Part shown: positions 1,396 to 17,053 of the stretch, piece after piece
How the letters are laid out: the number at the start of each line of letters is the position of its first letter
Position numbering within the stretch: the first letter of the stretch is position 1
Origin: Rhodococcus sp. IITR03
GTDB taxonomy: Bacteria > Actinomycetota > Actinomycetes > Mycobacteriales > Mycobacteriaceae
DNA: 17,053 nucleotides
Direction of reading: 5' to 3'
Assembly (NCBI GenBank): GCA_001017865.1
Contig: LATQ01000605.1
Location: forward strand, 1-17,053
Translations under genes and position numbers: made by a program
The notes under the pieces: model-generated
Told to the model about the DNA's origin: nothing
Database searches by the model: none
The model's input: the letters and a program-made list of their open reading frames with translations, nothing else

Positions 1396-1408
1396 CCACT
1401 TCGCGCTC
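1342..1408. repeat. REP-like palindromic repeat, copy 1
   Basis: A 67-bp element containing a perfect 24-bp inverted repeat: arms 1353-1376 and 1383-1406 around the loop GAATTG (1377-1382). It lies between the convergent ends of the ABC-F gene and vanK, so it could work as a bidirectional terminator. The same element recurs at 5633-5699 with 62 of 67 positions identical, in the same orientation. The conserved flank ACCGCAGCGAC lies outside the stem, which argues for a dispersed repeat family rather than two unrelated terminators. Confidence 0.85.
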
Positions 1409-1425
1409 TGATTCCTGGCCGTCGG

Positions 1426-2777
1426 TCAGCTCTGCGACTCTGTGGAGACGGCGGCGGGCACCGGCTCTGACGAGCGTCCGCCGAGCGTGCCGGGCGGCAG
1501 CGCGAACAGTGCCACCGCGGCGAGCACGACAACCCCGGCCACTCCGAAGTAGAGCTGTTCGGGCGTCCATCCCGCATCGAGGAGCACACCGGCCGCGGTC
1601 GGTGCGAGGATGGCACCCGCTCGGCCGATACCGATGGCGGAACCGACGCCGGTGGCCCGCACCTGCGGTCCGTAGAGGGACGGCGCGAGGGTGTACAGAC
1701 CGGCGATGCACCCGTTGATGAGTCCGCCGATCAGGATGCCGAGCGCGAACGCCAGCATCAGGGTCGAGATCGACATGATGAAGACGGTCATGGTCGCGGC
1801 GGCGGCGATGGTGAAGGTGAGCAGGACCGATCGGGTGGCCCATCGGCTGGCGAACACTCCGAAGAGCACCGACCCGACGGTGCCGCCGAGGGTGAGCATC
1901 ATGCCCGCCGTGGCGCTCTGGTCCTTCGTGAGACCGGCGGTCTCCAGCAGCGACGGCGTCCACGAGTTGACGAAGTAGAAGCCGAACATGGTGGCGAAGA
2001 AGGCCGCCCAGAGCAGCACCGTCGAACGGGTGTTGCTCCCGGAGAACAGATCCGAGATCCGTCCTGCCCGCGGTGCCGCCTTGTCACCGGAGCGGGTGAG
2101 CTCGGAGACGGGGCTCTGGCCGATGCGTCGCGCGATGCTGTTGACCCGGTCGAGATCGCCTGCGCGTCCCCGGCTGGTGAGGAAATCGAGGGATTCGGGC
2201 AGCAGGAAGACGAGGAGAGCGAGCACCAGGCCGGTGAGGCCGGCGCCGGTGACGAAGACTGCGCGCCAACCGTATTCGCTCTGCAGACCGACGGCGGCCA
2301 TACCACCGATCGTGGCACCGACGCCGTATCCGGCGGTGTAGATGCTGATGGCCAGACCACGCCAGCGGGCCGACGAGTATTCGCTCGCGATCACGGTGGT
2401 GCAGGCGAGGACGCCGCCGATGCCGAGTCCGGTGATGACCCGCCAGATGCCGAGTTCCCACGCCGATCCGCGCTCGCGGACAGGCCCATGCCGGCGGTGG
2501 CGAGCGCGACCGACATGAGGATCAGGGGCCGTCGGCCGATCCGGTCCGCCATCGGGGCGAGAGCGAGAGCACCGACGGCCATGCCGATCAGACCCGCGCT
2601 GAGCAGCACGCCGAGTTCCGATCCGCCGAGGCCGAAGTCGCTGCCGATGCTCTTGGCGGTGAACGCCAGGGCCATGACGTCGAACCCGTCGAGGATGTTC
2701 AGCACGACGCACAGGGCGACGACCATCCATTGGTAGGGATGCATCGGCGAGGCGTCGATGCGTGCGCGAAGATCCAT
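1426..2777 (-). CDS. vanK: Aromatic acid:H+ symporter (VanK-type MFS transporter), one frameshift
   Basis: Major facilitator superfamily permease of the AAHS branch (PcaK/VanK/BenK type), predicted to import vanillate or a related aromatic acid by proton symport across the cytoplasmic membrane. The start MDLRARIDASPMHPYQ at 2777 has a GAGGAAA ribosome site just upstream on the minus strand. TM1 carries the AAHS signature D30-G-F-D33, and loop 2-3 reads PMADRIGRRP (residues about 75-84). About 12 hydrophobic segments and a total of about 450 residues fit the family. The frame breaks at the CC at 2468-2469 (+ strand); adding one base restores SASAGSAWELGIWR. It is the last gene of vanA-vanB-vanK, starting 32 nt after the vanB stop. 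The substrate is assigned from its neighbours; other aromatic acids are possible. Confidence 0.82.
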
Positions 2778-2809
2778 CGTGTTTCCTCGTGGTGTGAAAT
2801 GCGCGGTGG

Positions 2810-3790
2810 TCAGGGAAGGTCGAGCGTGACGACACCCGTCGTCGATCGGGGCGACGCCGAATCGCGCACCACGCGGGACACGCAGGCGCACATCCGACGC
2901 GAGGAGCGCTTCTGCTCCTCGCTGAAGAAGACATCGCGGTGGTCGACGCGACCGTCGAGCGAGGCGACGGAGACCTCGCACAGGCCGCATTCGCCCTTGC
3001 GGCAGTCGAACATCATGTCGACACCGGCACGCCGAAGGGCGTCGAGCATCGATTCGTCGGAGCCGACGGTGGTGGTGACGTCGAGTTCGGGCACGGTGAC
3101 CGTGAACTCCTCGGCATCGAACCATCCACTGTTGCCGAAGGTCTCGTAGCGGAGATTCGGCATCGGCAGGTCGCGGTCGTGCCACCGGCGCCGCACGGCG
3201 TCCATGAGGCGGATCGGGCCGCACATGTACAGCTCGGTGCCGTGATCGACGCCGTCGACGAGCGCGGCGACGTCCAATCCCGTTCCCTCGTCGTCGATGT
3301 GGACGTCGAGACGGTCGCCGTGGAGGGCTTCGAGTTCGGACAGGAAGGCCATCGCGGAGCGACTGCGACCGACATACACGAAGCGGTAGTCGGCACCGAG
3401 GCGGCGGAGCACGGCCCCCATCGCGCGGACCGCGGTGATGCCGATGCCACCGGCGAGCAGGACATATCGCGGTGCGCCGACCCGCAGCGGGAAGTTCTGG
3501 AGAGGCTCGGTGATCTCGAGTTCGTCGCCGGGGCGCAGCGAGTGCATGTACTCGGAACCACCGCGCGAGGTGGGGGAGCGGTGGACGCCGAGTGTGAGGC
3601 GACCGTCCGGACCACCCGCGGCGAGGGAGTACGAACGCGTGTCGCCCGAGGGGAGACGCACGTCGATGTGGGCGCCGGGTTCGACGCGGTGGGCGGTGTC
3701 GGCCGCGAGGGTGATCTCGGCGATCGAATCGGCGGCCCGCTCGGCACTCACGACTCGGGCTCGCTGCCAACGGATCTGGTTGTTGCTCAT
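2810..3790 (-). CDS. vanB: Vanillate O-demethylase reductase subunit
   Basis: Phthalate-dioxygenase-reductase type electron transfer protein that takes electrons from NADH via FMN to a [2Fe-2S] centre and hands them to the VanA oxygenase in the cytoplasm. Intact, 326 residues, the usual length. The flavin motif RSYS is at residues 52-55, the nucleotide-binding GGIGIT at 114-119 and CGP at 190-192. The C-terminal plant-type ferredoxin domain has C263-x4-C268-x2-C271 and, 29 residues later, C301. The start at 3790 follows the vanA stop with one intervening base and has a GGGAG ribosome site within the end of vanA, so the two subunits are probably translationally coupled. The reductase class is certain; the vanillate assignment rests on VanA, VanK and VanR alongside. 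Confidence 0.9.
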   Translation of the reverse strand: MSNNQIRWQRARVVSAERAADSIAEITLAADTAHRVEPGAHIDVRLPSGDTRSYSLAAGGPDGRLTLGVHRSPTSRGGSEYMHSLRPGDELEITEPLQNFPLRVGAPRYVLLAGGIGITAVRAMGAVLRRLGADYRFVYVGRSRSAMAFLSELEALHGDRLDVHIDDEGTGLDVAALVDGVDHGTELYMCGPIRLMDAVRRRWHDRDLPMPNLRYETFGNSGWFDAEEFTVTVPELDVTTTVGSDESMLDALRRAGVDMMFDCRKGECGLCEVSVASLDGRVDHRDVFFSEEQKRSSRRMCACVSRVVRDSASPRSTTGVVTLDLP

Positions 3791-3791
3791 G

Positions 3792-4906
3792 TCAGTGGGC
3801 TCCCTCGGGAACGGCGGTGGTCGAGGTGAGGTTCCGCTCCGCTTCGACCATGCGCTGGATCAGGCGTCGCACCCACATACCGCCGGCGTCGATGTTGAGG
3901 TTGTAGAACTCGTGATCCGGGTTCGCCTCGATGGCCTTCTGCTGCGCGGTGATCATCGCCTCGTCCTCACCGAACACGCCGTGCACACCGTCGCGCAGCT
4001 GCGTGGTGATGAGCTGGCTGTCGAGACGGTAGTTGCGCATGAACGCCCAGAAATACAGGGCAGTGCGCTCGTCGACGGGCGAGATCGTGTTCATGACGAA
4101 GCCGTTGACGCCCTGGCTGCGGTCGCCTCGGGGGCACCGGTTCCGGCCTTGGCCACACCGACATCGATGCGGATCGTGGACGGTGCCTGGAACTCGATGA
4201 TCTGCCAGCGGTCGACCTTGCCCTCGAAGCCGGGGAACTTGTCGCGCATGTTCTTCAGCCAGAACGGCGGTGCGTCGATGTCGTGCATCCAGCGGGTGAC
4301 CGTGACGGTGCGGTCGTCGTGGGTGACGACGAAGTCGGACTCGCTCAGTTCGTCCTGGCCGATGGACGACGAGTGTACGAACTCCTCGTGGGTGAGGTCC
4401 ATGAGGTTGTCGAGGACGAGCTGGTAGTTGGCCTGCACGTCGATCGTGCGTCCGTCGCCCGCCCAGTCGGGGGAGTCCATCTGGAACATGTCCGGGACGA
4501 GATCGGGATCGGCCTGCGTCGGATCGCCCGGCCAGACCCACACGAAGCGGTGCCGCTCGACGACGGGATAGGACGCCACCATCGCGGACGGATTGATCGT
4601 CTGCTGGGCGGGCATGTGCGTGCAGCGACCTGCGGAGTTGTACTGCAGACCGTGGTAGGGGCACTGGATGCCCTCGCTACCGATGAGCTTGCCCATCGAC
4701 AGTGGCGCCAGGCGGTGCCAGCAGGCGTCGGCGAGGGCGACGGGACGGCCTTCTTCGGTGCGGTAGAGGGCCATCGGCTTGCCGGCGATGGTGCGGGCGA
4801 GGATCTCGCGGCGACCCACCTCGTGATCCCAGGCGACGACGTACCAGGCGTCGAGCGGGTAGGCCATGTTCTTCGCGGTCGCCCCGGTGGGGCCGAGATC
4901 GGTCAT
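3792..4906 (-). CDS. vanA: Vanillate O-demethylase oxygenase subunit (Rieske), one frameshift
   Basis: Rieske non-haem iron oxygenase that removes the methoxy methyl group of vanillate as formaldehyde, giving protocatechuate. The Rieske site is C62-x-H64 and C82-x2-H85; the catalytic iron motif is DLTHEEFVH with D170, H173 and H178. APPFW, the MRNYRL region and LNIDAGGMWVRR near the C terminus match VanA proteins such as that of Pseudomonas as I recall them. The start MTDLGPTG at 4906 is chosen because GGAGG lies 8 nt upstream (+ strand 4914-4918); an in-frame ATG at 4924 lacks this. The frame breaks at the CC at 4126-4127 (+ strand); one added base gives GAPEGDRSQGVNGFV and a protein of about 371 residues. 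First gene of vanABK, presumably repressed by the divergent VanR. Another methoxybenzoate demethylase is the main alternative. Confidence 0.88.
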
Positions 4907-4936
4907 GTCGGATCCTCCGAACACTGAAGGTGAAAT

Positions 4937-4956
4937 AACTATCTACATAGATAGTT
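4937..4956. promoter_or_regulatory. Putative VanR operator 1 (vanA-proximal)
   Basis: AACTATCT-ACAT-AGATAGTT: a perfect 8-bp inverted repeat with a 4-bp spacer. It lies 31 bp upstream of the vanA start and would overlap its core promoter. The general layout, AACTA-type arms separated by 4 bp, resembles the VanR site I recall from Corynebacterium glutamicum vanABK. Seen directly as a palindrome; binding by VanR is inferred. Confidence 0.75.
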
Positions 4957-4972
4957 GGTGAGCTGGAGCACA

Positions 4973-4992
4973 GACTATCTATCGATATAGTT
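4973..4992. promoter_or_regulatory. Putative VanR operator 2 (vanR-proximal)
   Basis: GACTATCT-ATCG-ATATAGTT: the same layout as operator 1 with imperfect arms (6 of 7 core positions pair). Its centre lies 36 bp from that of operator 1 and 43 bp upstream of the vanR start. A second, weaker site on the regulator's side fits autoregulation or cooperative repression. Confidence 0.7.
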
Positions 4993-5035
4993 ATTCGCAA
5001 GGGTGGAATACTCGCCCGGGGAAAGGTGGTGGTCC

Positions 5036-5622
5036 ATGAGCCTGCGATACGCGCTGCTCGCATTGCTCACCGCCGAGCCTCTGACCGGCTACGACGCGGC
5101 GAAACGGTTCGGCGGGTCGGTCGGGCACGTCTGGCATGCACCCGACTCGCAGATCTACCCCGAACTACGCCGGATGGAGCGCGAGGGCCTCGTCGAGGGC
5201 GAACAGGTGCGCTGGGGTCCCAACAGCACCAAGACCCGGTACTCGATCACCGAGGAGGCATCCGGGCCTTCCGCGAGTGGATGTCCACCCCGCTGGACTA
5301 CGCCCCGGTGCGCGACGCCGCCCACATGCGCGCGGCCTACTTCGAATGGGCCGACCCGCGCAGTGCTCGCGAGTGCCTGCAACGGCACATCGACCACTAC
5401 ACCGAACAGATCGCCCAGTGGACCACGGTGCGCGACGCGATCCTCGACCTCAGCAACGCGACCATCGCGAGACGCGTGCAGAAGTATCCGGCCGAGGACC
5501 ACGAGCGGATCATCGCGTTCAAGGCGTTCGCGTACGACGGTCTCATCGGCCGGGGCGAGGCCGAGATCGCGTGGGCACGCCAGGGCCTCGAACTCCTCGA
5601 CAAGCTGTCGCCGCGTAACTGA
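5036..5622 (+). CDS. vanR: PadR-family repressor VanR, one frameshift
   Basis: PadR-type transcription regulator, about 195 residues after repair. The N-terminal winged helix runs over residues 1-75, with LTGYDAAKRFGGSVGHVWHA and QIYPELRRMEREGLV as the recognition region, then a wing (VRWGPNSTKTRYSITEEG). The C-terminal half, with ECLQRHIDHYTEQIAQWTTV, is the helical dimerisation and effector domain of longer PadR proteins. The frame breaks at GG 5257-5258; one extra G gives EEGIRAFREWMSTPLDYAP. ATG 5036 is chosen over the upstream GTG at 5003 because the protein starts directly with the conserved MSLRYALLALL. By analogy with corynebacterial VanR it would repress vanABK and release DNA when vanillate is present. 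The ligand is inferred from the neighbours. Confidence 0.85.
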
Positions 5623-5632
5623 GTCGCCCGGG

Positions 5633-5699
5633 ACCGCAGCGACGCGCGAACTGGTCAGCGGAGCGCGGAATTGCGCGCACCGATGACCGTTTCGCGCTC
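5633..5699. repeat. REP-like palindromic repeat, copy 2
   Basis: Second copy of the 67-bp element at 1342-1408, same orientation, differing at five positions. Arms 5644-5667 and 5674-5697 pair at 20 of 24 positions around the identical loop GAATTG (5668-5673). It lies 10 nt after the vanR stop and 17 nt before the end of the convergent lysR gene, so like copy 1 it sits at a convergent gene junction. The less perfect stem suggests this copy has drifted. Confidence 0.82.
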
Positions 5700-5716
5700 C
5701 GACGTCGGTGGTCTGA

Positions 5717-6613
5717 TCACGGCGTGCTGTCCGTCGGCGGCACGATCGAATGCGCGAGCGCCCGCATGAGGAACTCGAGTTCGGGATTGGGCGTCGCGTT
5801 GCTCCGCACCACCCCGCACACCGGCACCTGCAGCCGGTGGTGGATCTCGCGCATGAATTTCAGCCCCTTGCGGGGTGTGTCGGCCGCGGTGCCGGCGTAG
5901 AGCACGGTCCACGCCCTCGGGTTGGTGAGCACCTCGAGAGTCGCGGTGTGGTCGCTCGCGATCGGAGGCCCGAGGCGCACGCGACGACCGACCTCGACGA
6001 AGGCGTCCTCGACCACGCGGTGCAACAACACCTGGTTGCCGCGCGGCGGCAGCAGCAGCGGGTAGTGGGCGAGGTCGCCGAGATCGACGGTGGAGAAAGC
6101 CGACAGCGGGTGCTCGCTCGACGTGACGATGACGAGCTCTTCGATGCCGAGACGGATCGTCTCGAGCCCCGGGCGGTCGACGTCGCCGCGGATGAGCGCG
6201 AGATCGGCATCCCCGGACGCGACGGCGTTGACGCGGTCGGTGAAGTCCTTGATGACGAACTCCACGTCGATCTTGGGGTGACGCTCGCGGACGCTCGAGA
6301 TGGCGTCGAGGCTCTGCGACGCGAAGCTCATGTTCGCCGTGATGCGGATGCTCTCCCGCGGTTCGTGGCCCACTTCCAGGGCCTTCGCTTCGAGACTGAG
6401 CACTTCGGCGGCGATCGGCATCAGGCGTTGGCCGGCCGAGGTGAGCTTGACCGAGCGGGTCGTACGGTCGAACAGGGTGGTGCCCAGTTCGTGCTCGAGC
6501 TTCGCGATCTGATGGCTGATCGCCGACTGCGAGATGAAGCAGCGCTGGGCAGCACGGGAGAAGCTGCCCTCCTCGCCGACGGCGAAGAAGTAGCGCAACT
6601 GACGGAAATCCAT
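5717..6613 (-). CDS. LysR-family transcriptional regulator
   Basis: Intact LTTR of 298 residues. The N-terminal helix-turn-helix (residues about 1-60) contains the hallmark SFSRAAQRCFISQSAISHQI followed by LEHELGTTLFDR. Residues about 90-290 form the periplasmic-binding-protein-like effector domain. The start at 6613 has a strong GGGAGGAG ribosome site 5 nt upstream on the minus strand. It diverges from ndh with about 150 bp between the starts; LTTRs often control the divergent gene, but NDH-2 is a housekeeping enzyme, so a distant target is equally possible. Effector unknown. It converges on vanR, so it is not part of the van transcription unit. Confidence 0.92.
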   Translation of the reverse strand: MDFRQLRYFFAVGEEGSFSRAAQRCFISQSAISHQIAKLEHELGTTLFDRTTRSVKLTSAGQRLMPIAAEVLSLEAKALEVGHEPRESIRITANMSFASQSLDAISSVRERHPKIDVEFVIKDFTDRVNAVASGDADLALIRGDVDRPGLETIRLGIEELVIVTSSEHPLSAFSTVDLGDLAHYPLLLPPRGNQVLLHRVVEDAFVEVGRRVRLGPPIASDHTATLEVLTNPRAWTVLYAGTAADTPRKGLKFMREIHHRLQVPVCGVVRSNATPNPELEFLMRALAHSIVPPTDSTP

Positions 6614-6765
6614 GTCTCCTCCCGGGAACGTGTCATCTGGATTTATGAGCGAAACAGATAACAGTTTTTCGAATATCCCAGGTTAGTGGAGACCGAGGGT
6701 CCTTCGTACCTACTTGGGAGTCATACATCAACGGAGATGACAAGTACGTGGAGGTTTACGACAGC
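6614..6765. promoter_or_regulatory. lysR-ndh divergent intergenic region
   Basis: About 150 bp holding the promoters of both genes. A weak LTTR-like dyad, GATA-N13-TATC (6657-6677), lies in an AT-rich patch 44 bp upstream of lysR. No convincing -35/-10 hexamers stand out. Low-confidence site call; the divergent arrangement itself is certain. Confidence 0.35.
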
Positions 6766-8136
6766 ATGGACGATGCGGACACAGTGACCCTGGTCGATCG
6801 GACAGATGTAGTCATCGTGGGTTCCGGCTTCGGAGCATTGGCCACCGCCAAGAAGCTCGCCAAGGCCGGCACGCCCTTCGTTCTCATCTCGGAGACCACC
6901 GAGCATCTTTTCCAGCCTCTGCTCTACCAGGTTGCGACCGGTGTCCTCTCGCCCGGTGAGATCGCCCCCTCCGTGCGTGCGATCCTGGCCGAGTACCCCA
7001 ATGCCGACGTCCGCCTGGGCCGCGTCGTGGACGTGCTCCCCGAGGAGAACACGGTCGTCTACGAGGCCGGCGGCCAGCGTCTCCGCCTCGGCTTCAAGTA
7101 CCTCGTCGCCGCGACCGGCGCGCGCCAGGCGTATTTCGGACGCGACGAGTTCGCGGACCTGACGTACGCGCTGAAGACGGTCGAGGACGCCGAGAAGCTG
7201 CGTCGCCAGATCGTGCGCTGCTTCGAGGAAGCACACGTCACCACCGATGCGGAGCGTCGGAAGAATCTTCTCAGCTTCATCGTCGTGGGTGCCGGCCCGA
7301 CGGGCGTCGAACTCGCGGGACAGATCAAGGAACTCGCGCAGCGCTACTTCGCCGAGAACATCGGCAACATCCGCGCCGACGACGTCACCGTCACGCTCGT
7401 CGAGGGCGCCGACAAGGTGCTGCCCCCGTTCGGCGGCAAGCTCAGCGAGTACTCCAAGGAGTCGCTCGAGAAGAGCGGCGTCGACGTCGTCCTCGGGACG
7501 ATGGTCACCGACATCGACGAGCACGGTGCCATGCTCACCACGCCCACGACCGAGGAGACCCGCCGCCTCACCGCGGAGACCATCATCTGGTCGGCCGGAA
7601 TCCAGGCCAACGACTTCGCCGACGTGCTCGCCGAGCGCACCGGCTGCGAGACGGTCCGCGGCGGACGCCTGCTCGTCGACCCCGACTTCACCGTCGGCCG
7701 CAGCGACAACATCTTCGCCATCGGCGACATGGTCACCCTCGACAACCTGCCGGCGCAGTCGCCGTTCGCCATGCAGGGTGGCCGCCACGTCGCGAAGATG
7801 ATCACCGGCAAGGTCGCGATGGGCACCCCGTTCCAGTACAAGGACAAGGGCAGCATGGCGATCATCAACCGGTTCCGCGCCATCACGCGGGTCGGGAAGA
7901 TCGAGCTCACCGGCTTCATCGCCTGGGTGCTGTGGCTCGCCGTCCACCTCGTCTACCTGGTCGGATTCCGCAACCGGTACATCGCGGTCATGTCCTGGTG
8001 CGGTTCCTTCCTCGGACACCGTCGCCCGCACTTCTACTACGCGCAGGACACCGTCCCGGTGCCCGCTGTGGAGAAGGAGTCGGCAGCGAAGGACGAGCCG
8101 GAGAGCGACAAGGAACCCGTGCGGACGTCCGCATAA
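6766..8136 (+). CDS. ndh: Type II NADH:quinone dehydrogenase (NDH-2)
   Basis: Single-subunit, non-proton-pumping NADH:menaquinone oxidoreductase on the inner face of the membrane. The FAD-binding motif VVIVGSGFGALATAKKL is at residues 15-31 and the NADH-binding VVGAGPTGVELAGQI in the middle. FAIGDM is the second FAD contact. HLFQPLLYQVATG and the C-terminal amphipathic or membrane-anchor segment (TGFIAWVLWLAVHLVYLVGF) match mycobacterial Ndh. Intact, about 456 residues. ATG 6766 is preferred because GGAGG lies 11 nt upstream (6750-6754); an in-frame GTG at 6748 with GGAG upstream would add six residues. Monocistronic: the terminator at 8148 follows directly. Confidence 0.93.
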   Translation: MDDADTVTLVDRTDVVIVGSGFGALATAKKLAKAGTPFVLISETTEHLFQPLLYQVATGVLSPGEIAPSVRAILAEYPNADVRLGRVVDVLPEENTVVYEAGGQRLRLGFKYLVAATGARQAYFGRDEFADLTYALKTVEDAEKLRRQIVRCFEEAHVTTDAERRKNLLSFIVVGAGPTGVELAGQIKELAQRYFAENIGNIRADDVTVTLVEGADKVLPPFGGKLSEYSKESLEKSGVDVVLGTMVTDIDEHGAMLTTPTTEETRRLTAETIIWSAGIQANDFADVLAERTGCETVRGGRLLVDPDFTVGRSDNIFAIGDMVTLDNLPAQSPFAMQGGRHVAKMITGKVAMGTPFQYKDKGSMAIINRFRAITRVGKIELTGFIAWVLWLAVHLVYLVGFRNRYIAVMSWCGSFLGHRRPHFYYAQDTVPVPAVEKESAAKDEPESDKEPVRTSA

Positions 8137-8147
8137 CTACAGACCCC

Positions 8148-8181
8148 CGAAAGGCTCCGACCGCCCGGTCGGGGCCTTTCG
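8148..8181 (+). terminator. Hairpin terminator of ndh
   Basis: Arms 8148-8163 and 8166-8181 form a 16-bp stem with a single G-U pair and a very tight loop, 11 nt after the ndh stop. The downstream GTCGTTCG is only weakly T-rich, common for actinobacterial terminators. Confidence 0.75.
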
Positions 8182-8372
8182 TCGTTCGCGCGCCGAACCG
8201 GGATCGACGCGGCATGTTGCGGTAGCGAGTCCCGATTCACCGCGCGCACTGCTGCGACCGGCGGGTGAAAGCCGGGGTGATTTCCGGGATGTCCTGCAAG
8301 CCAGAGACGTTCGAGTGGTGTAGATCCGCCGACCTGCGGCTAGCGTGTGCAGCGCATCCCGAGGAGTGACCC
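8182..8372. promoter_or_regulatory. Intergenic region upstream of the carrier-protein operon
   Basis: About 190 bp between the ndh terminator and acpS with no supported gene. It must hold the promoter of the six-gene operon. The only feature I trust is the ribosome site GAGGAG (8361-8366), 6 nt before the acpS ATG. A TAGCGT at 8341-8346 has the TANNNT form of a -10 box but lacks a clear -35. Confidence 0.4.
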
Positions 8373-8801
8373 ATGAACGATGACAGCGGCCCCCGCGTCG
8401 CGACGACACGCGTCGGCTGCGATGTCGTCACCGTCCGCGACATCGCGTCGAGCATCGACCGGTTCGGCGACCGCTACCTGCAGCGCGTGTTCACCCCGCA
8501 CGAGCTGGAGATGTGCACCGGATCGGGTCGCGCCCAACGCCTCGCGGCACGCTTCGCCGCGAAGGAGGCCGTCATGAAGGTCCTGCGTCCGCGTGAGCAC
8601 GCAGTTCCCTGGCGGGCCATCGAGATCCGCCGCGCGGACTGGGGCGGATGCACTGTCGTACTGGCCGGTAACGCGGCCACCCTGGCGCGAGATGAACAGG
8701 TGACCGACATTCAGGTCTCGATTTCCCACGAGCTCGAATACGCCATCGCGACGGTCGTGGCGACCCGCGTCGACGAAGCAGAAACTGGCGAACATCCATG
8801 A
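8373..8801 (+). CDS. acpS: AcpS-type 4'-phosphopantetheinyl transferase
   Basis: Transfers 4'-phosphopantetheine from CoA to the active serine of a carrier protein, making the apo protein active. Intact, 142 residues, normal for the AcpS family. Mg-binding and catalytic signatures are present: VGCDVV with D17 near the N terminus, and RLAARFAAKEAVMKVL with E65. The C-terminal VSISHELEYAIATVVA matches the conserved SHxxxYAxA motif. The start at 8373 has GAGGAG 6 nt upstream. Its stop overlaps the start of the ACP gene (ATGA at 8798), so it probably serves that carrier rather than, or in addition to, the fatty acid synthase. The symbol denotes the family; the organism probably has another AcpS for FAS. 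Confidence 0.88.
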   Translation: MNDDSGPRVATTRVGCDVVTVRDIASSIDRFGDRYLQRVFTPHELEMCTGSGRAQRLAARFAAKEAVMKVLRPREHAVPWRAIEIRRADWGGCTVVLAGNAATLARDEQVTDIQVSISHELEYAIATVVATRVDEAETGEHP

Positions 8802-9041
8802 CGGAACAGGTGATCCGCAAGGGTCCTCGGTGAGCACGCGAAGCTGTCGGTCGACAGCACGGCGCTCGATCCCGCCGCCGACCTCTACGAGCTCGGCCTG
8901 ACATCGCACGCCAGCGTGAACGTGATGCTCGCCCTCGAGGACGCCTTCGACGTCGAATTCCCCGACGAACTGCTGCGCAAGAGCACCTTCGCGAGCGTCG
9001 GCGCCATCAGGTCGGCGTTGACGGAACTGGGCGTCGCGTGA
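8798..9041 (+). CDS. Acyl (aminoacyl) carrier protein, one frameshift
   Basis: Small acidic carrier protein of about 80 residues. From about 8826 the frame reads LGEHAKLSVDSTALDP, then DLYELGLTSHASVNVMLALE, then the ACP-typical DAFDVEFPDELL and FASVGAI, ending GVA at 9041. The phosphopantetheine serine is the S of LTSHAS (about residue 36), where most ACPs have DSL. The ATG at 8798 overlaps the acpS stop and opens with MTEQVIRK but meets a stop at 8831. The frame must shift at 8819-8826 by +1 (one extra G) or -2, a sign opposite to the other shifts in the window. It lies directly before the dehydrogenase and one gene before the amino acid:CP ligase, so it is the likely acceptor for both. Confidence 0.83.
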
Positions 9042-10224
9042 CGTCCCCGTCCGCGCCCCTCACCGTCGCGGAGCATGCCGGGCTGTCGCTGCTCGCCCGT
9101 GCCGAACTCGTCGGACGCGAGAGCGCCGGCCCCGCGGCCGCCGAGGTGGATCGTGAAGGACGCTTTCCGCACGAGGCCGTCGACGCGCTGCGCGCCCACA
9201 AGCTGCTGAACTGCGCCGTCCCTGTCGATCAGGCGGGGAGGGAGCGTCCCTCGGTGAGCTGTGCGCCGTCGCCCGCATCCTCGGCCGGTACTGCGCCTCC
9301 ACCGCGATGATCTTCGCAATGCACCAGACGCAGATCCTGTCGCTGGTGCATCACTCCACCCCGGGTGTGGCGGCCTTCGTCGCCGAAGCGGTGGCGAATG
9401 ACTACCTGATCGCTTCGGCGACCACCGAACTCGGCACCGGCGGCGACGTGCGCAGCAGCGTCTGCGCCGTGGCCCGCGACGGCGACACCGTCACCCTGAC
9501 GAAGAACGCACCGGTCATCTCGTACGGCGAATACGCCGACGCGATCCTGGTGACCGCGCGTCGCACCGCCGACAGCCCGCCCAGCGACCAGGTGCTCGTC
9601 GTATGCCGACGCGACGACGTGAACCTCGAACCCACCGGCAGCTGGGACACCCTCGGACTCCGCGGCACCTGCAGTCCCGGATTCGTCCTCACTGCCACGA
9701 CGTCCGCCGATCTCGTCGTCGGCACGGCCTACGCCGAGATCTCGTCGCGCACCATGCTTCCCGTCTCGCACAGTGTGTGGTCGGCGGTGTGGCTCGGAAT
9801 CGCCGACGCGGCGATGGAGAAGGCCCGCTCGTTCGTGCGGTCGGCGGCCCGCCGCAGCCCGGGGGTCACCCCGCCCGGTGCGCTGCGACTCGCCGAAGCA
9901 GCCGCCGTGCACCAGCAGTTCTCCGATCTCGTCGCCGGGTCCGCCGCCCGGTTCGACGCAGCCGCGTCGGCGCAGGAGGAATCGATGTCGAGCATGGGTT
10001 TCTCGCTCGCCATGAACAACCTCAAGGTCACCGCGTCCACGCTCGTCGTGGATCTGGTGAACCGCGCGATGCTCATCTGCGGGATCGCCGGATACCGCGA
10101 GGATTCGCAGTACTCGCTCGGCCGCCACCTGCGCGACGCGCACGGCGCCGCCGTGATGGTCAACAACGACCGCATCATGAACAACTCGGCCCAGTTGTCG
10201 ATCGCCTACCGGGGGACGCTGTGA
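9038..10224 (+). CDS. Acyl-CoA/acyl-ACP dehydrogenase-like flavoprotein, one frameshift
   Basis: Flavoprotein of the acyl-CoA dehydrogenase superfamily, about 395 residues after repair. The N-terminal helical domain starts SPSAPLTVAEHAGLSLLARA. The mid region ASATTELGTGGDVRSS is the flavin- and substrate-binding strand where the family has the TExxxGSD motif. The C-terminal helical domain ends with RHLRDAHGAAVMVNNDRIM. The usual YEGT active-site segment after RDA reads VNNDR, without the Glu of short- and medium-chain enzymes. GTG 9038 overlaps the ACP stop (GTGA). The frame breaks at GG 9232-9233; one G restores VDQGGEGASLGELC. In this setting it probably oxidises the carrier-bound aminoacyl group, as such enzymes do on prolyl-S-PCP in pyrrole pathways; that is inference, and acyl-CoA substrates remain possible. 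Confidence 0.82.
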
Positions 10225-11177
10225 CAAGTACAGCCATTACCAGCGCCGCAACCGACGAGCTGTCCGAACTCGAGCGCGCCCGCCTCGACTTCCAGCAGCA
10301 GCTGCTCGAGGCCGAACTGCTCGTGGAGACCGGTGTTCCCGGCCTCTACGGACGCTCGGGTGTCTTCGAGGACATCGTCGACGGCATCGACCGCGTGGTG
10401 GTCGCGGCGGGTCCGGGCCGGGCGGCCACGCGCCTGCGTTTCCCTCCGGTCTTTCCGCGGACGAGCTTCGAGCGCACCGACTACATCGCCTCCTTCCCGC
10501 ACCTGACCGGAGCGGTGAACACCTTCGCGGGCAGCAACGCCGAGCACGCCGAACTGCTCGCCGCGCGGTCGCGGGGAGAGGCGTGGGATCCGTGGCTCGA
10601 ACCCGCCGACACCGTGCTCGTCTCCGCCGCATGTCATCCCGCTTACTCGCGGTACACCGGCACGCTGCGCGAGGGTGGCGAACTGCTCGACGTCCTCGGT
10701 TACTGCTTCCGGCACGAACCTGCCGTCGACCCCGCTCGCATGCAGGCCTTCCGCATGCACGAGTTCGTGCGCATCGGCACCGAGAACGATGCTGCGCAGC
10801 ATCGTGATTTCTGGGTGGAGCGAGGACTCGAGGTGCTCGGCTCTCTGGGTCTCGACGCGACCGCCGTGCCCGCCAACGATCCTTTCTTCGGACGGGCCGG
10901 GCGCATGCTGGCCGTCAACCAGCGCACCGAGAACCTCAAGACCGAGCTGACCGTCCGGCTCTACGGCGACCTCGACGACGGCACCGCCGTGGTCTCGTGC
11001 AACTGCCATCGCGAGCACTTCGGCGAGACCTTCGAGATCCGCACCGCCGACGGCGAAGTCGCGCACAGCGCGTGCGTCGGATTCGGCATGGAGCGGATCG
11101 CCCTGGCACTGCTGCGGACCCACGGGCTCGACGTCGACCGCTGGCCCGCTTCGGTACGCGACAGGCTGTTCCCGTGA
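10221..11177 (+). CDS. Amino acid:[carrier protein] ligase (class II aaRS-like)
   Basis: Intact, 318 residues. Matches the catalytic core of archaeal-type seryl-tRNA synthetase with no tRNA-binding domain. Such proteins, described from Bradyrhizobium and Agrobacterium, adenylate a small amino acid (glycine or alanine in the tested cases) and load it on the phosphopantetheine of a carrier protein. Motif 2 is seen in FRMHEFVRIGTEND (about 176-191) and motif 3 in SACVGFGMERIALALL (about 283-298, with R292). The three zinc ligands expected from the family map to C138 (AACHPAY), E181 and C285. GTG 10221 overlaps the dehydrogenase stop as GTGA. An upstream in-frame extension to 9603 is only a shadow of the dehydrogenase gene. 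The amino acid used cannot be told from sequence alone. Confidence 0.88.
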   Translation: MTSTAITSAATDELSELERARLDFQQQLLEAELLVETGVPGLYGRSGVFEDIVDGIDRVVVAAGPGRAATRLRFPPVFPRTSFERTDYIASFPHLTGAVNTFAGSNAEHAELLAARSRGEAWDPWLEPADTVLVSAACHPAYSRYTGTLREGGELLDVLGYCFRHEPAVDPARMQAFRMHEFVRIGTENDAAQHRDFWVERGLEVLGSLGLDATAVPANDPFFGRAGRMLAVNQRTENLKTELTVRLYGDLDDGTAVVSCNCHREHFGETFEIRTADGEVAHSACVGFGMERIALALLRTHGLDVDRWPASVRDRLFP

Positions 11178-12132
11178 GCGATCGGCTCATCGACGTCCGC
11201 GTCGACGGGTACTCACCGCACTTCGTGCACGCTGCCGACCGGATCTGGACCGAGACCAACTGCTATGTCGACCTGTGGGTCGAGGTGCTGCATTCGCTCG
11301 GCCACGATCCGGTCCCCGCGGCCGCGTGCGCGTTCTCGGCGCGGTTCGACGGCGCCCAGTGGACCTTCCTCAAGTTCCGTCCCGAGGACCTGTTGGCGCT
11401 GTACGGGATCGACGTCGCGGAGATGAACGTCTGGCGCCGTCCGGTGGATCACCTCGAGGACAACGCCGCCGCCGGTCTGTTGTCGACGATCGAGGTGGAC
11501 GCCTTCTGGCTGCCCGACACCGAGGGCACCGGATACCGGGAGAGTCGTTCGAAGACGACGATCGTGCCCAACGTCATCGACCGCGACACCGAGACGCTCG
11601 AGTACTTCCACAACAGCGGCTATCACGTCCTCACCGGTGAGGACTTCCGCGGAGTGTTCGGCCTCGACGAACCGGTGCCCACCTGGCCTCCCTATCTCGA
11701 ACAGGTGCGCCTCGACGCGGCCCAACCGCAGCGTGATGCCTTCGACACGATGGTGTTCCGGCATCTGCGCATGCGTGCGGACTCGAATCCGGTGCGCGAA
11801 CTCGGGAAGCGGGTGCTCGCCGACATCGACTCGATCCGCACCGGCGGGATGGACGTCTTCCATCCGTGGACGTTCGGGGTGCTCCGCCAGTGCGGTGCCA
11901 CGGCCGAACTCGCCGCGGACGTGAGCGTCTACATGGACCGTCGCGGATATCCCGGTGCGGCCGCCGCAGCCGACGGATTCCGCGCGGTCGCCGAGGGTGC
12001 CAAGAGCGTGCAGTTCCGGATGGCGCGTGCGGCACGTGGCCGCAGCGTCGATCCCGGCGACCAGTTGACGGCGATGGCCGACGCTGGGAGGACGCCATGG
12101 CGACCGTCGTCCGCGCCGCCGGGGTGCGGTGA
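11174..12132 (+). CDS. DUF1839 family protein, putative aminoacyl transferase, one frameshift
   Basis: About 319 residues, with the conserved DUF1839 pattern: TETNCYVDLWVEVLHSLGHD (residues 26-45), DGAQWTFLKF (59-68), LLALYGIDVAEMNVWRR (73-89), VDAFWLPDTEGTGYR (108-122) and YFHNSGYHVL (144-153). No verified function known to me. The early Cys30 followed by an amphipathic helix, then a strand ending VDxxxLP, resembles the papain-like N-terminal domain of BtrH, which moves an acyl group from a carrier protein to an aminoglycoside. This is my own pattern match. GTG 11174 overlaps the ligase stop (GTGA). The frame breaks near 12084; one added base gives ADAWEDAMATVVRAAGVR and the stop at 12130-12132. 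Cytosolic, with no signal peptide or membrane segment. Confidence 0.82.
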
Positions 12133-12147
12133 CGGGACTCGACTCGT

Positions 12148-14633
12148 ATGGATCTCCTGCACGATGCGCGATGGCGGTGTCTCCCTATCGCTCCTGGGTC
12201 GGTCGAGCATCCCGGCGACCTTCCGGAGGACGATTGTTGGTTGCCGGTCCGCATACCCGGGACGGCGGCAGGCGCGATTCGGGAGACCGACGGAGTCGCG
12301 GCGGCCCGGGCGTCGTCACCCGACAGCGACGACTGGTGGTTCGTCACCGACGTCGAGGTGTCCGGCGACGGACCGTGGCATCTGACCTTCGACGGGCTCG
12401 CGACCCTCGCGGAGGTATGGGTCGACGGGACATGCGTCGCGACGTCGGAATCGATGTTCGCGCCGCTGACCGTCGTCCTCGACCGCCTGCCGTCGACTAC
12501 GCGGATCGCGATCGGTGTGCCTCGCTCGAGGCTGCACTCCGCAAGCGTCGGCCGCGCGGACGGTGGCGCTCGTCGCTCGTATCGGCCCAGGGATTGCGGT
12601 GGTTCCGCACCACGATGCTCGGGCGCGCCCCGGTCTACGCGGGAGCTCCGGCACCGGTCGGACCGTGGCGCCCTGTTCGTCTCGTCGATTCCGGCGAACC
12701 CGTCGTGCTGGGACGCGGGATACGAACGCGTGTACGCGGATCCGACGGGATCGTCGACGTCGATCTCGTGCTGGCAGGAGCCGTCGTCTCCGAGGTCGCT
12801 GTGGAGATCGGCGGGGCGGCGGCGCACGCCCGGCCCGAATACGGGCCCGACGGGACAGCGCGCGTGCGGATGCAGGTGACGCTCCCCGAGGTGCAGCGGT
12901 GGTGGCCGCATACCTACGGCGACCCGAACCTGTACGCGGCACACATCCTCTTGGACGGGCATCGGATGGAACCGGGCACTATCGGTTTCCGATCGGTGGA
13001 GCAAATTTCGGGCGACGGATTCGGCCTGCGGATCAACGACGTCGACATCTTCTGCCGCGGACTGGTGTGGACACCGACCGACCCGATCACCTTGAACGAC
13101 TCGGCCGGAACCCGGCGCATCCTCGAACGCTGCGTGTCGGCGGGCGTGGACACGATCCGCATCCCCGGCACGATGGTCTACGAGGACGACGAGTTCTACT
13201 CGGCGTGTGCCGAACTGGGCATCATGGTGTGGCAGGACGTCATGCTCGCCACGACCGATCCACCCGACGACCCGCACTTCCGCTCGCTGCTCGAGGACGA
13301 GGTCCGTGCACTGGCGCGCCGATGGGGCGGAAACCCGGCACCCGTCGTGATGTGCGGAGGCAGCGAGACCGAGCAGCAACCGGCCATGCTCGGTCTGACG
13401 GAGACATCCATCCCGGCACTCGACGACTGGTTGCCTGCGATCGTCGACCGCGAGTTACCGGGCACGGTGTGGGTGTCGTCGTCACCGTCCGCACCCCCGG
13501 GTAGCGACGCACTGTCGATCGCGGTGGGTTCGGGTGTGGCGCACTACTTCGGTGTCGGGGGTTACCGTCGTCCTCTCGCCGATGTGCGCGCTGCCGGCGT
13601 GCGCTTCGCCGCCGAATGCCTCGCTTTCTCGATTCCACCCTCCGACACGGCGATCGAGACTGCGTTCGGCAGTGTGAATGTCGCCGGTCACCATCCGCGG
13701 TGGAAGTCGGTTGTGCCGCGCGACAACGGCGCGTCGTGGGACTTCGAGGACGTACGAGACCACTATGTGCGCACGCTCTTCGGGGTCGACCCCGCCGAGG
13801 TGCGGTGGTCCGACCCCGCGCGGTATCTCGCGCTCGGGCGGGTGGCGATCTGCGAAGCGTTCACCGAGGTGCTGCAGTACTGGCGACGGTCCGGATCAGG
13901 ATGTTGCGGTGCCCTGATCCTGTCCGCCCGCGACCTGCAGCCGGGTGCCGGATGGGGCGTGCTCGACGCCGACGGGAACCCGAAGGCTCCGTGGTGGGTG
14001 CTGGCCCGGGTGTTCGCGCCCGTCACCGTCCTCCTCACCGACGACGGCCTCGACGGCCTGCGTGTGGACGCCATCAACGACACCGCCGACGTTCTCGACG
14101 TCACGCTGCAGTTGCAGGCCCACACCCCCTCGGGTGCGGTACCGGTGGACGTGTCCGTGCCGCTGCATCTCGCCCCGCACGAGACCCGGGTGATCTCGTG
14201 GGCATCGGTGACGGGCGGTTTCACCGATGTCAATTTTGCGTATCGATTCGGGCCGCGCACTTTCGACACGGCGACCGCCCGGTTGGTGGATCACGCCGGT
14301 GCGGTGCTGGCGGAGTCGGTGCATCTCGTGGGCGGTCCGGCACGGCCCGTCGAGCGCGGAATCGGTCTCACGGCGACCGCTCGACCCGTCCCGGACGGGT
14401 GGAGCGTGGAGGTGCGAACCGAGGGTGCGGCGCAGTACGTGCACCTCGACGTCAACGGCGGTGACCTGGAGGATTCCTGGTTCCACCTGCCTCCCGGAGG
14501 TTCTCGCACGATCACCGTGCGGGCCTGTGATCCGGCCGCGACGCCGATCGGTCGGGTGGGGGCATCGAACTCGGCCACGAGCGTGCCGATCCGGGTGCTT
14601 CCCGCCTCCGACGGCCACGAGGTCGAGGGGTAG
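12148..14633 (+). CDS. GH2 family glycosidase (beta-mannosidase-like), one frameshift
   Basis: About 828 residues after repair, the size of GH2 beta-mannosidases and exo-glucosaminidases. The N-terminal sugar-binding beta-sandwich shows WLPVRIPGTAAGAIRE and WWFVTDVEV. The central part shows WWPHTYGDPNLY, then RIPGTMVYEDDEFYSACAEL and GIMVWQDVMLA of the TIM barrel. The acid/base Glu is E407 in VMCGGSETE (codon 13365-13367). The nucleophile is very probably E490 in RFAAECLAFSIPP (codon 13614-13616). C-terminal beta-sandwich domains follow. The frame breaks at CC 12520-12521; one C gives IGVPSLEAALRK. ATG 12148 has GGGA about 10 nt upstream; a GTG at 12129 overlaps the DUF1839 stop but is in the wrong frame. 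There is no signal peptide, unusual for a polysaccharide-degrading enzyme, so the substrate is probably an internal glycoside. Exact sugar unknown. Confidence 0.85.
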
Positions 14634-14752
14634 CTTCCCGAGGCTCCCGGCGGGGCGGTGTGTGGCGCGCCGAAATCGACAGGTGCATATCGGGCATCGA
14701 CGGGGTATATGTATCTCCCAAGGGTCGCTCACCCGATTTGCACCTTCTGTAC

Positions 14753-14767
14753 GGTGCCGGTGGCACC
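14753..14767. repeat. Short inverted repeat upstream of the small ORF
   Basis: GGTGCC-GGT-GGCACC, a perfect 6-bp dyad, 28 bp before the ATG of the 54-codon ORF and about 120 bp after the GH2 stop. It could be an operator or a weak hairpin. The rest of 14634-14795 shows a short AT-rich patch (TATATGTAT, about 14706-14714) that may be promoter DNA, and nothing else that I can support. Confidence 0.4.
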
Positions 14768-14795
14768 TCTCCCCGCCTTCCGAGAGGAGATCGAC

Positions 14796-14960
14796 ATGGC
14801 GATCCGCTCCACGTCGCAGATGGGTGCCTCGCGCACCGCTTCGTCCACTCGCCGTCCTGCCCGGACAGAGCAGGACGGACCGTCCTTCACCGAGGTCATC
14901 CACTCGCAGCTGTTCTCGAACTACCAGGTGCCTCGCGGACAGGTACAGCGCAGCGCCTGA
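14796..14960 (+). CDS. Small hypothetical protein (54 aa)
   Basis: An ATG with a strong purine-rich ribosome site (GAGAGGAG, 14783-14790) opens a 54-codon frame ending TGA at 14958-14960. The product is basic in its N-terminal half, rich in Ser, Arg and Thr (SQMGASRTASSTRRPAR), then has FTEVIHSQLFSNYQVPRGQV. No membrane segment, Cys pair or recognisable RiPP leader. It lies alone between the GH2 gene and the MDR oxidoreductase. I do not recognise the family. The good ribosome site and ordinary codon use favour a real gene over chance. Confidence 0.55.
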   Translation: MAIRSTSQMGASRTASSTRRPARTEQDGPSFTEVIHSQLFSNYQVPRGQVQRSA

Positions 14961-15047
14961 CCGAGAGACTCTCCGGCCCGACATCGTGCCTGCCGGAGTG
15001 CCCGCGCGCAGCGTTCAGGACACCTGCGCGTGCGGCACACTGTCGGC

Positions 15048-16078
15048 ATGAGTGAAGCCACCACGAGTCAGAGCACCCGCATCGTTCTCGCGTCGCGTCC
15101 GGAGGGGGCGCCCACCGCCGACAACTTCCGTTTCGAGACGGTGGATCTGCCGGAGGTCGGCGACGGCCAGATCCACCTGCGCGTCGTCTACCTGTCCCTC
15201 GACCCGTACATGCGCGGTCGGATGAGCACCGCGAAGTCGTATGCCGCGCACGTCGAACTCGGGGACGTGATGGTCGCCGGAACGGTGTGCCAGGTCGTCG
15301 AATCGCGGTACGACGGTCTCGAGCCGGGCGATTACGTCCTGGCCGGAGCCGGCTGGCAGTCGCACGCCGTCCTCGACGGCTCCACCGTGCGCAAGCTCGA
15401 TCCGCAGGCCGCGCCGATCTCCACCGCGGTGGGCGTGCTCGGAATGCCCGGCTTCACAGCCTATTCCGGACTCCTGAAGATCGGGCAGCCGAAGGAGGGC
15501 GAGACCGTTGTGGTCGCTGCCGCCACCGGGCCGGTGGGATCGGCCGTGGGCAGATCGCGAAGCTGAAGGCGCCCGCGCGGTCGGTATCGCCGGCGGACCG
15601 GAGAAGTGCCGCGCACTGATCGAGGAGTTCGGTTTCGACGCGGCGATCGACCACCGCGACCCGAACTTCCCCGACAAGCTGGCGGAGGCGGTGCCCGACG
15701 GCATCGACGTGTACTTCGAGAACGTCGGCGGCCCCGTCCAGGAAGCGGTGTGGCCCTTGCTCAACACCTATGCGCGGATCCCGGTGTGCGGCCTGGTCGC
15801 GCAGTACAACGGCGCGGATCTGAACCGCACGGACCGCCTTCCGGGACTGTTCAATTCGATCCTCACCAAGAGCCTCACGATCCGCGGTTTCATCCAGAGC
15901 GAGTTCGTGAAGGAGATGTACGGCGACTTCCTACGTGAGGCCTCTGCATGGGTCCGCGATGGAAAGCTCAAGTATCGCGAGGACATCGTCGACGGACTCG
16001 AGAACGCCCCGGAGGCGTTCATCGGCATGCTCGAAGGAAGAACTTCGGAAGATGCTCGTGCGGGTCGCGCCGGAGTGA
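15048..16078 (+). CDS. MDR-family NADP-dependent oxidoreductase (CurA/PTGR-like), four frameshifts
   Basis: Zinc-independent medium-chain reductase, about 344 residues after repair, of the group that reduces alpha,beta-unsaturated ketones or acts as quinone-type reductases with NADPH. Signatures: YLSLDPYMRGRM near the N terminus, GMPGFTAYSGL before the cofactor domain, AATGPVGSAVGQIAKLKG as the NADPH-binding turn, VYFENVGGPV, and the C-terminal KYREDIVDGLENAPEAFIGMLEG. ATG 15048 is chosen over GTG 15030 because it begins MSEATTSQSTRIVL, typical of the family. The frame breaks at 15548-15550, 15568-15569, 16038-16039 and 16049-16050. Each is repaired by one base in a G or A run, the last two giving GKNFGKMLVRVAPE and the stop at 16076-16078. 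Substrate unknown; no strong link to the carrier operon. Confidence 0.85.
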
Positions 16079-16111
16079 CGGACACCGGTCCACCCTCCGG
16101 CGCCGGCCGCG

Positions 16112-16546
16112 TCAGCGTCGGGGGATTCCGGTGGACCACAAGGCCCACAGGATGAGCACCGGTTGGAAGAACAAGCGGATCAGGCGCTTACGGTCGGTGT
16201 CGAGACCGAAGGCGCTGCGCTTGCCGAGATACTGGGCGATGTTGCCCGGGAAGACGGCGGCGAAGAACAGTGCGGCCAGGCGGCCGACACGGACGCGGTC
16301 GCGGTTCGCCACGGCGAGTCCGGCGCCGAGCATGATCTCGACACCGCCGGATGCCATGACCACGCCGTCCTTGTCCATCGGCACCCAATCGGGCACCTGG
16401 GCCTGGAAGTCCCTGCGGGCCCAGAAGAGATGGCTCAGCCCGGCGAAGACGAGTGAGGCGGCCAGCAGATAACGCGCGAGGGTCCGGGCTCGTGTCGTGG
16501 GCGGAGCAGGGGCTTCGGTCGGTGGAGTTATCTGTACATCGCTCAT
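16112..16546 (-). CDS. DoxX-like membrane protein
   Basis: About 144 residues with four hydrophobic segments: YLLAASLVFAGLSHLFW, GGVEIMLGAGLAVA, LAALFFAAVFPGNIAQYL and LFFQPVLILWALW. This matches the small DoxX/DoxD-like integral membrane family, whose function is poorly defined. ATG 16546 (MSDVQITPP) is chosen; an upstream in-frame start at 16612 would read through the long hairpin. No Shine-Dalgarno is visible before this ATG, while TACGCT (minus strand, 16554-16559) lies 7 nt upstream as a possible -10 box, so the transcript could be leaderless. Its 3' end converges on the MDR gene with 33 bp between. Confidence 0.82.
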   Translation of the reverse strand: MSDVQITPPTEAPAPPTTRARTLARYLLAASLVFAGLSHLFWARRDFQAQVPDWVPMDKDGVVMASGGVEIMLGAGLAVANRDRVRVGRLAALFFAAVFPGNIAQYLGKRSAFGLDTDRKRLIRLFFQPVLILWALWSTGIPRR

Positions 16547-16566
16547 GATCACGAGCGTACGGACTG

Positions 16567-16606
16567 TACGGTGCTCGCGACGGGGGATCGCGTCGCGAGC
16601 ACCGTA
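16567..16606 (-). terminator. Perfect 16-bp hairpin between thiolase and doxX-like gene
   Basis: Arms 16567-16582 and 16591-16606 are exact reverse complements with an 8-nt loop. It lies downstream of the thiolase stop and 20 nt upstream of the doxX-like ATG, both on the minus strand, so a terminator for the thiolase transcript is the simplest reading. There is no T-run after the stem. An operator or attenuator for the doxX-like gene is possible. Confidence 0.55.
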
Positions 16607-16613
16607 GGTCACA

Positions 16614-16678
16614 TCAGGTGATGCGTTCGACGGCGTCGGTCGCCGTCAGGCGACGCGTTCGAACGCCGTCACTCGCCG

Positions 16679-16697
<19 letters not shown>
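16614..16697 (-). repeat. Tandem copies of the thiolase 3' end
   Basis: Three units starting with TCA at 16614, 16646 and 16679 (spacing 32 and 33 bp). Each contains a variant of the thiolase's last codons and stop, read on the minus strand as FERIA-stop, FERVA-stop and (F)ERIT-stop. The unit at 16679 is the real gene end. The first two units match at about 27 of 33 positions with one gap. Confidence 0.7.

Positions 16698-17053
<356 letters not shown>

Follow-up and report, generated by a model that had tools for sequence, protein, structure and literature searches.

A probable operon for coupling carrier-protein-bound amino acids

What does a bacterium make with an operon that sets an amino acid:[carrier protein] ligase beside a flavoprotein, a DUF1839 protein and a glycosidase? 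The question is raised by contig LATQ01000605.1 of Rhodococcus sp. IITR03, analysed here over positions 1 to 17,053 (hereafter the window), a Rhodococcus-like chromosome stretch of 17 kb. We predict that the six genes would join an amino acid, in amide linkage, to an amino sugar or some other glycan amine via a carrier protein and without a non-ribosomal peptide synthetase (NRPS); the pathway is conserved, and a first sketch of it was published as a prediction in 2010. For its two central steps taken jointly, the loading of the amino acid on the acyl carrier protein (ACP) and its coupling to a sugar amine, we judge the balance of probability to be slightly favorable, and the flavin and glycosidase steps are proposed with lower confidence than these. 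Pieces of all six predicted proteins were found by Pfam on the + strand at 8373-14633 of the window; lengths of broken frames are given from the nearest relative genome compared (G001), which is 98.9% identical to the window over 17,074 columns:

8373..8801, + strand: AcpS-type phosphopantetheinyl transferase (PPTase), 142 aa in an open frame; Pfam ACPS 59.4 bits
8798..9041, + strand: ACP, 80 aa in G001, one frame break in the window; PP-binding 32.8 bits (piece 8823-9038)
9038..10224, + strand: acyl-CoA-dehydrogenase-fold flavoprotein (ACAD), 395 aa in G001, one frame break in the window; Acyl-CoA_dh domains in two pieces
10221..11177, + strand: amino acid:[carrier protein] ligase, 318 aa in an open frame; PRK07080 and Bll0957 matches
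11174..12132, + strand: DUF1839 protein of papain-like fold, candidate aminoacyl transferase, 319 aa in G001, one frame break near the end in the window; PF08893 322 bits
12148..14633, + strand: GH2 glycosidase, beta-mannosidase-like, 828 aa in G001, one frame break in the window; Pfam matches on two pieces

Conservation of the gene set across genomes

The preliminary description of this DNA had set co-occurrence of the genes in other genomes beforehand as one of the points on which its scheme could fail. A scan of named genomes gave 530 DUF1839 relatives, of which the best-scoring 80 loci were used, a sample biased to close relatives, near-identical strains and cut contigs. These were searched over 9 kb, or as far as the contig end, with core hidden Markov models (HMMs) built from cassette loci of separate genomes; two of those loci, L007 and L049, duplicate the named L103 and L150, so that 2/80 are partly in the training set. 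The genes are linked in most of the 80 loci (ligase in 78, ACP in 78, ACAD in 76, GH2 in 75 and PPTase in 65), and the same holds for the 66 groups at 90% identity that represent the 79 loci with a called gene (64, 64, 62, 61 and 52, respectively). Among the 19 loci that miss a core gene, five lie on contigs shorter than 9 kb and four more on contigs of 11.4-16.5 kb. Forty control stretches, hand-picked at round positions, yielded one weak GH2-like and one weak ACP-like match.

The order of the genes varies by lineage: it is collinear in Rhodococcus and most Acidimicrobiia; in Williamsia, and in the majority of the relatives from Gordonia and mycobacteria, the ligase and ACAD genes run divergently from ACP-DUF1839-GH2-PPTase; and further layouts are found in Rhodococcoides (convergent) and in Burkholderiales. 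Genes that have been rearranged and yet remain linked argue for a joint function. Over 77 loci, the pairwise identities of five of the proteins show correlations of 0.72-0.91, which fits joint inheritance, species kinship being uncorrected. In 298 genomes of the order to which G001 belongs, DUF1839 is present in 9 and the ligase in 44, and all nine DUF1839 genomes have the ligase (p 1.6e-8, again uncorrected for kinship). DUF1839 is rare in a sample of the phylum (4/396 genomes), and the closest relative among the named genomes listed is that of R. gordoniae DSM 44689 (91%). Loci with the set include L083 (R. opacus), L086 (R. jostii) and L160 (Azospirillum sp. B510).

The set is also carried on plasmids. 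Seven of eight plasmid loci (two in Rhizobium and one each in Azospirillum, Mycetohabitans, Cupriavidus, Shinella and Methylobacterium) have ACP, ACAD, ligase, DUF1839 and GH2, and the same five genes are present at a Caballeronia locus (L212); the eighth, from Tsukamurella (L162), has ligase, ACP and PPTase only. A plasmid origin of the window's operon was considered and rejected, as megablast gave no plasmid match at the DNA level and a near relative has the set on a 5.46-Mb contig. Inspection covered 42 of the 51 places with a ligase, which were retrieved. At locus L039 ligase, ACAD and ACP stand together, and DUF1839 lies about 15 kb away in the same genome. Metagenome-assembled genomes assigned to Acidobacteria (L127, L135) or to Chloroflexi (L155) are possibly misbinned. 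On the megaplasmid of Cupriavidus metallidurans CH34 (L163), a single GH2 gene stands between two DUF1839 copies on opposite strands.

Predicted loading of the amino acid on the carrier protein

The three proteins of the loading step belong to recognizable families. In G001, the PPTase scores 68.4 bits against NCBIfam TIGR00516 acpS (cut-off 59.8), the ACP 98.7 bits against PRK07081 (cut-off 72) and the ligase 445.5 bits against PRK07080, 'amino acid--[acyl-carrier-protein] ligase' (cut-off 357). Ser36 of the ACP is kept in 86/86 aligned relatives, and its nearest solved relatives are the aminoacyl carrier proteins 4H2W_C and Atu2571. The ligase, which in the window reaches 18 bits with Pfam tRNA-synt_2b (below cut-off), matches the Bll0957 chains 4H2W and 3MEY with E 2e-68 and 9e-67. 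Seryl-tRNA synthetase chains align with it only at query 128-316 and 172-316, that is, over the C-terminal, catalytic half of their 527 and 522 aa, so the ligase is without the tRNA-binding part. This agrees with the preliminary description, which had seen in it an aminoacyl-tRNA synthetase (aaRS)-like ligase lacking a tRNA-binding domain. Cys138 and Cys285 are kept in 86/86 relatives and Glu181 in 93%, and we take the three to be the Cys-Glu-Cys zinc ligands. Charging of tRNA was weighed as a role for the ligase and appears unlikely from its sequence, given the missing tRNA-binding part and the linked ACP and PPTase.

Going by what is known of its family, the PPTase would convert the ACP to its holo form. 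The ligase would then activate a small amino acid, probably glycine or alanine, and load it on the ACP; carrier-protein loading is published for Bll0957 (PMC9437257, PMC2922099).

DUF1839 as a candidate coupling enzyme

The model of the DUF1839 protein (predicted local distance difference test, pLDDT, 92.3) has a papain-like fold, which is matched by CcbD, CtaG and AziU3, the latter two being enzymes of natural-product pathways. The fold is common to DUF1839 and CcbD along the entire protein. Cys30, a candidate counterpart of CcbD Cys19, is present in all 87 relatives with a letter at that position, and Thr/Ser128 and His146 are each kept in 89/89. These residues agree with the C(T/S)H triad that PMC10318531 gives for the family, with a guess at a part in glycan processing; this was the sole paper naming DUF1839 that we found in the open-licence literature. 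From the modelled fold and the conserved residues we infer that DUF1839 would accept the acyl group on Cys30 and, in the manner of CcbD in lincosamide synthesis, hand it on to the amine of a sugar. The preliminary description had proposed transfer by this protein to an acceptor: the CcbD fold match strengthens the transferase idea, and a free small molecule as acceptor did not gain support.

The flavoprotein and the glycosidase

The place of the ACAD next to the aminoacyl-ACP is indicated by gene clusters that keep ACP, ACAD and ligase without a nearby DUF1839 or GH2, namely those of Priestia aryabhattai (L211, on plasmid p-LAD4), L060 and L061. That the three genes occur on their own links the flavoprotein with the aminoacyl-ACP, and the Priestia neighbors hint at alanine. 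There, AcpS-ACP-ACAD-ligase is accompanied by ComX, a two-component system, an ATP-grasp enzyme, an alanine permease, an alanine racemase and a D-Ala-D-Ala ligase (Ddl), and the whole resembles a cluster under quorum control whose product would derive from alanine. By eye, the triad adjoins a 1796-aa polyketide-synthase-like protein in L060 and condensation-domain-like and ABC-transporter-like genes in L061. Distant relatives of the ligase occur near PPTase, condensation-domain and phytanoyl-CoA dioxygenase genes in Streptomyces clavuligerus (L213, pSCL4) and flanked by two Ddl-like ligases on an Apilactobacillus kunkeei plasmid (L214).

The ACAD has a Pfam Acyl-CoA_dh_1 match of 32.4 bits and an N-terminal match of 19.6 bits, below its cut-off, and its model (pLDDT 88.5) superposes on several ACADs with a template-modelling (TM) score of about 0.8. 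The position of the catalytic Glu of medium-chain acyl-CoA dehydrogenase is occupied by Val in 76 and Ile in 8 of 84 relatives, and by Glu in none; nor is there a conserved Glu at residues 236-256 among these 84. His245, Trp248 and Trp252 are invariant (84/84), and the helix holding His245 is the one where some ACADs carry their catalytic Glu. Similarity to dehydrogenases and to flavin monooxygenases (TdsC, DszC, KijD3) is of comparable strength: by profile the dehydrogenases are slightly ahead (109 bits vs 89 for KijD3), and by fold the monooxygenase TdsC is. The aminoacyl-ACP thus probably undergoes a flavin reaction, which may be of the dehydrogenase or of the monooxygenase kind. Of the earlier proposal that the aminoacyl group is perhaps oxidized on the ACP, the linked ACAD-fold flavoprotein stands, and the oxidation itself is no more than a possibility in view of the absent Glu.

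The GH2 protein groups by sequence with beta-mannosidases, an activity that is predicted here. In the window it matches Pfam Glyco_hydro_2_N2 (32.5 bits) and Ig_mannosidase (29 bits) in two pieces, and the solved beta-mannosidases 5N6U and 6BYC with E 2.8e-85 and 1.2e-79. The two Glu residues that we assign, by motif, to catalysis are kept in 78/82 and 79/81 relatives and are both present in G001. None of 12 aligned N-termini resembles a signal peptide (by eye). A catalytic Glu is replaced by Gln, Asp or Gly at the acid/base site in L112, L118, L142 and L137 and at the nucleophile site in L141 and L144, and some family members may, from their sequences, be inactive as glycosidases.

Nature of the acceptor and competing explanations

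Genes of the GT4, Bac_transf or Wzx type are found near 44/80 named loci, on which the HMMs were trained, vs 1/40 control stretches. Outside the training set, and with duplicates dropped, they are near 10/19 loci (p 1.3e-5); this count includes 8/12 ligase loci other than full cassettes, L039 among them (p 5e-6). They are near 0/19 of the distant ligase loci. A two-domain alpha/beta hydrolase also recurs at other loci (44 genes in 18 ad hoc groups), and a search of G001 with one such protein gave no match. An exosortase link was rejected: the hydrolases are related to the exosortase-A-associated families and score 83 and 135 bits, below the respective cut-offs of 203 and 168; a text search of the 2006 PEP-CTERM paper for a hydrolase or ligase found no passage. 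In a second ligase context (L040-L043, L047, L048 and L162), ligase, ACP and PPTase stand in polysaccharide clusters and the retrieved stretch has no ACAD, DUF1839 or GH2.

Several observations weigh against an amino-acid amide of a glycan amine. The seven full-cassette loci outside the training set, counted after two loci identical to training loci were dropped, have polysaccharide genes nearby in two cases (vs 1/40 controls, p 0.054). In the subgroup of the window (L002, L079-L082, L087), neither these genes nor the alpha/beta hydrolase is near any of the six loci, and 20 kb round the G001 copy contain none of GT4, Bac_transf, Wzx or alpha/beta hydrolase. DUF1839 gave no sequence match to solved chains up to E 10, and its Cys, Thr/Ser, His triad departs from the Cys-His-Glu of CcbD. 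The ACAD is missing the usual catalytic Glu. L154 has DUF1839 and GH2 with no ligase, ACP, ACAD or PPTase within 19 kb, and L109 is without ligase, ACAD and PPTase within 9 kb. A sugar-linked acceptor is a fair prediction for the family and a weaker one for the window's strain.

The best surviving alternative, which we rate as unlikely, keeps the chemistry and makes the acceptor soluble, an amino sugar or an aminocyclitol, giving a diffusible lincosamide- or butirosin-like product unmasked by a cytosolic GH2. The nearest folds to DUF1839 (CcbD, CtaG and AziU3) stem from natural-product pathways, and such a product would suit the absence of polysaccharide genes near the window's subgroup, the GH2 without an evident signal peptide and the triad in the antibiotic-like Priestia cluster; it sits poorly with a gene set that includes no exporter, resistance or sugar-nucleotide gene and with the polysaccharide genes near more than half of the named loci. 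A bolder reading, which we put forward as a doubtful conjecture, is a portable pathway of at least Actinomycetota and Pseudomonadota for conjugates of the lincosamide or butirosin type. In it, a ligase descended from an aaRS would feed the ACP; an ACAD-fold enzyme whose Glu is lost, and whose substrate helix bears an invariant His, would modify the aminoacyl thioester; and an enzyme of CcbD fold, its triad rearranged to Cys-Thr/Ser-His, would couple the product to an amino sugar that a cytosolic beta-mannosidase then unmasks.

Less probable again is that DUF1839 acts as a thioesterase or protease-like hydrolase, freeing the modified amino acid from the ACP, so that the product would be an unusual free amino acid. 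The papain-like fold includes hydrolases too (PMC10318531), and the extended fold match to CcbD points to transfer.

Under the preferred reading, amide formation with a glycan amine, the ACAD would modify the ACP-bound aminoacyl group, as its linkage suggests, DUF1839 would couple that group to the sugar amine, and a cytosolic GH2 might cleave a beta-hexoside of the acceptor or product, the weakest step. The chain of loading, oxidation, transfer and glycosidase action proposed in the preliminary description fits these findings and the linked genes, save that oxidation is only a possible step and its free small-molecule acceptor unsupported. The conserved set and a structure-based coupling candidate make the question directly testable. 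If an amide is formed, DUF1839 (PF08893) would gain a function, as a transferase that resembles CcbD and differs from it in the triad. Sugars would then be aminoacylated in soil actinobacteria and in rhizobia associated with plants by a route that needs neither tRNA nor an NRPS.

Integrity of the operon in the window

The preliminary description had called the six genes a one-strand operon, and all six proteins are indeed on the + strand; it had passed over the ACP, ACAD, DUF1839 and GH2 frames, each broken once by a one-base indel in the window, where PPTase and ligase are intact. All the G001 copies are open, with a 4-base start/stop overlap at each junction among the first five genes and the GH2 start 15 bases past the DUF1839 end, so a single transcript is expected. 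Window and G001 differ by 24 one-base indels, mostly at short homopolymers (by eye); in 21/24 the base is absent from the window, and 4 fall inside the 6.3-kb operon and 20 in the remaining 10.8 kb. Because the indels are spread along the window and the near-identical G001 is open, we take the four breaks for a sequence-quality artefact (sequencing error); the window assembly seems to carry such errors, and therefore single frames there are not to be trusted. That the operon is decaying in this strain, as the four breaks might suggest, is very improbable in view of that distribution and the intact G001 copy. A promoter and terminator scan of 8000-15100 was uninformative (one promoter-like site, on the opposite strand, and zero terminator-like sites), and an Rfam search of the window at gathering scores gave no match.

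Relation to known systems

A pathway of this kind was predicted in 2010 by Iyer and co-workers. Their note added in proof in Biology Direct (PMC2922099) places a seryl-tRNA synthetase-like ligase near an ACP, a redox enzyme, the highly conserved, uncharacterised Atu2574, a glycosidase and liposaccharide genes. It predicts that Atu2574 couples the amino acid, as an amide, to an amine on a sugar of the cell surface. Apart from the liposaccharide genes, all the linked genes of that neighborhood are present in the operon, and the amide predicted is the same. The differences are that PMC2922099 offers a prediction without experiment, that a dedicated PPTase is not mentioned in the quoted note, and that the saccharide genes, absent round the window's copy (20 kb of G001), occur in part of the other groups. 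Their absence does not, in our view, exclude the operon from that neighborhood, since PMC2922099 describes only an association. Atu2574 is probably the DUF1839 protein, going by gene order: because Atu2571 is the ACP, Atu2574 falls where the collinear arrangement has DUF1839. The earlier statement that the operon has no known product holds to the extent that no paper giving one was found in the open-licence literature; the pathway idea itself has been in print since 2010 (PMC2922099). New with respect to that paper and PMC10318531 are the CcbD-type fold with its triad residues, the loss of Glu from the ACAD, the relation of GH2 to beta-mannosidases, the co-occurrence and neighborhood counts and the variant gene sets.

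The ligase and ACP are homologs of Bll0957 and the carrier protein that goes with it (3MEY, 4H2W), and a table in PMC10888616 has bll0957 beside the acyl-CoA dehydrogenase bll0958. The published work on Bll0957 covers loading only, and its biological role is called unknown in PMC9437257. The lincosamide condensing enzymes CcbD and LmbD differ from DUF1839 in their triad and in the lack of any sequence match of DUF1839 to solved chains. The butirosin side chain is an amino acid borne on an ACP, as proposed here, in a pathway with another ligase, another flavin enzyme and no glycosidase. Butirosin BtrH is likewise a papain-like acyltransferase, acting on an aminoglycoside (PMC10318531), and in lincosamides the amino acid is activated by an adenylation domain (PMC4351081), whereas here the ligase would do so.

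Other genes in the window

Upstream, 1-1411 on the + strand encodes an ABC-F ATPase related to ribosomal protection proteins of the TlrC/CarA/OleB type (352 bits, below the cut-off of 800). On the - strand at about 1426-4930 there is a row of homologs of a Rieske-type oxygenase, a BenC-like reductase and an aromatic-acid transporter of the major facilitator superfamily (the last by eye), each under its NCBIfam cut-off, which is perhaps an aromatic demethylase set. The next same-strand gene past the operon, bar a 68-aa gene call, lies at about 15041-16093 on the + strand and encodes a homolog of NADPH-dependent curcumin reductase (536 bits, NCBIfam cut-off 440).

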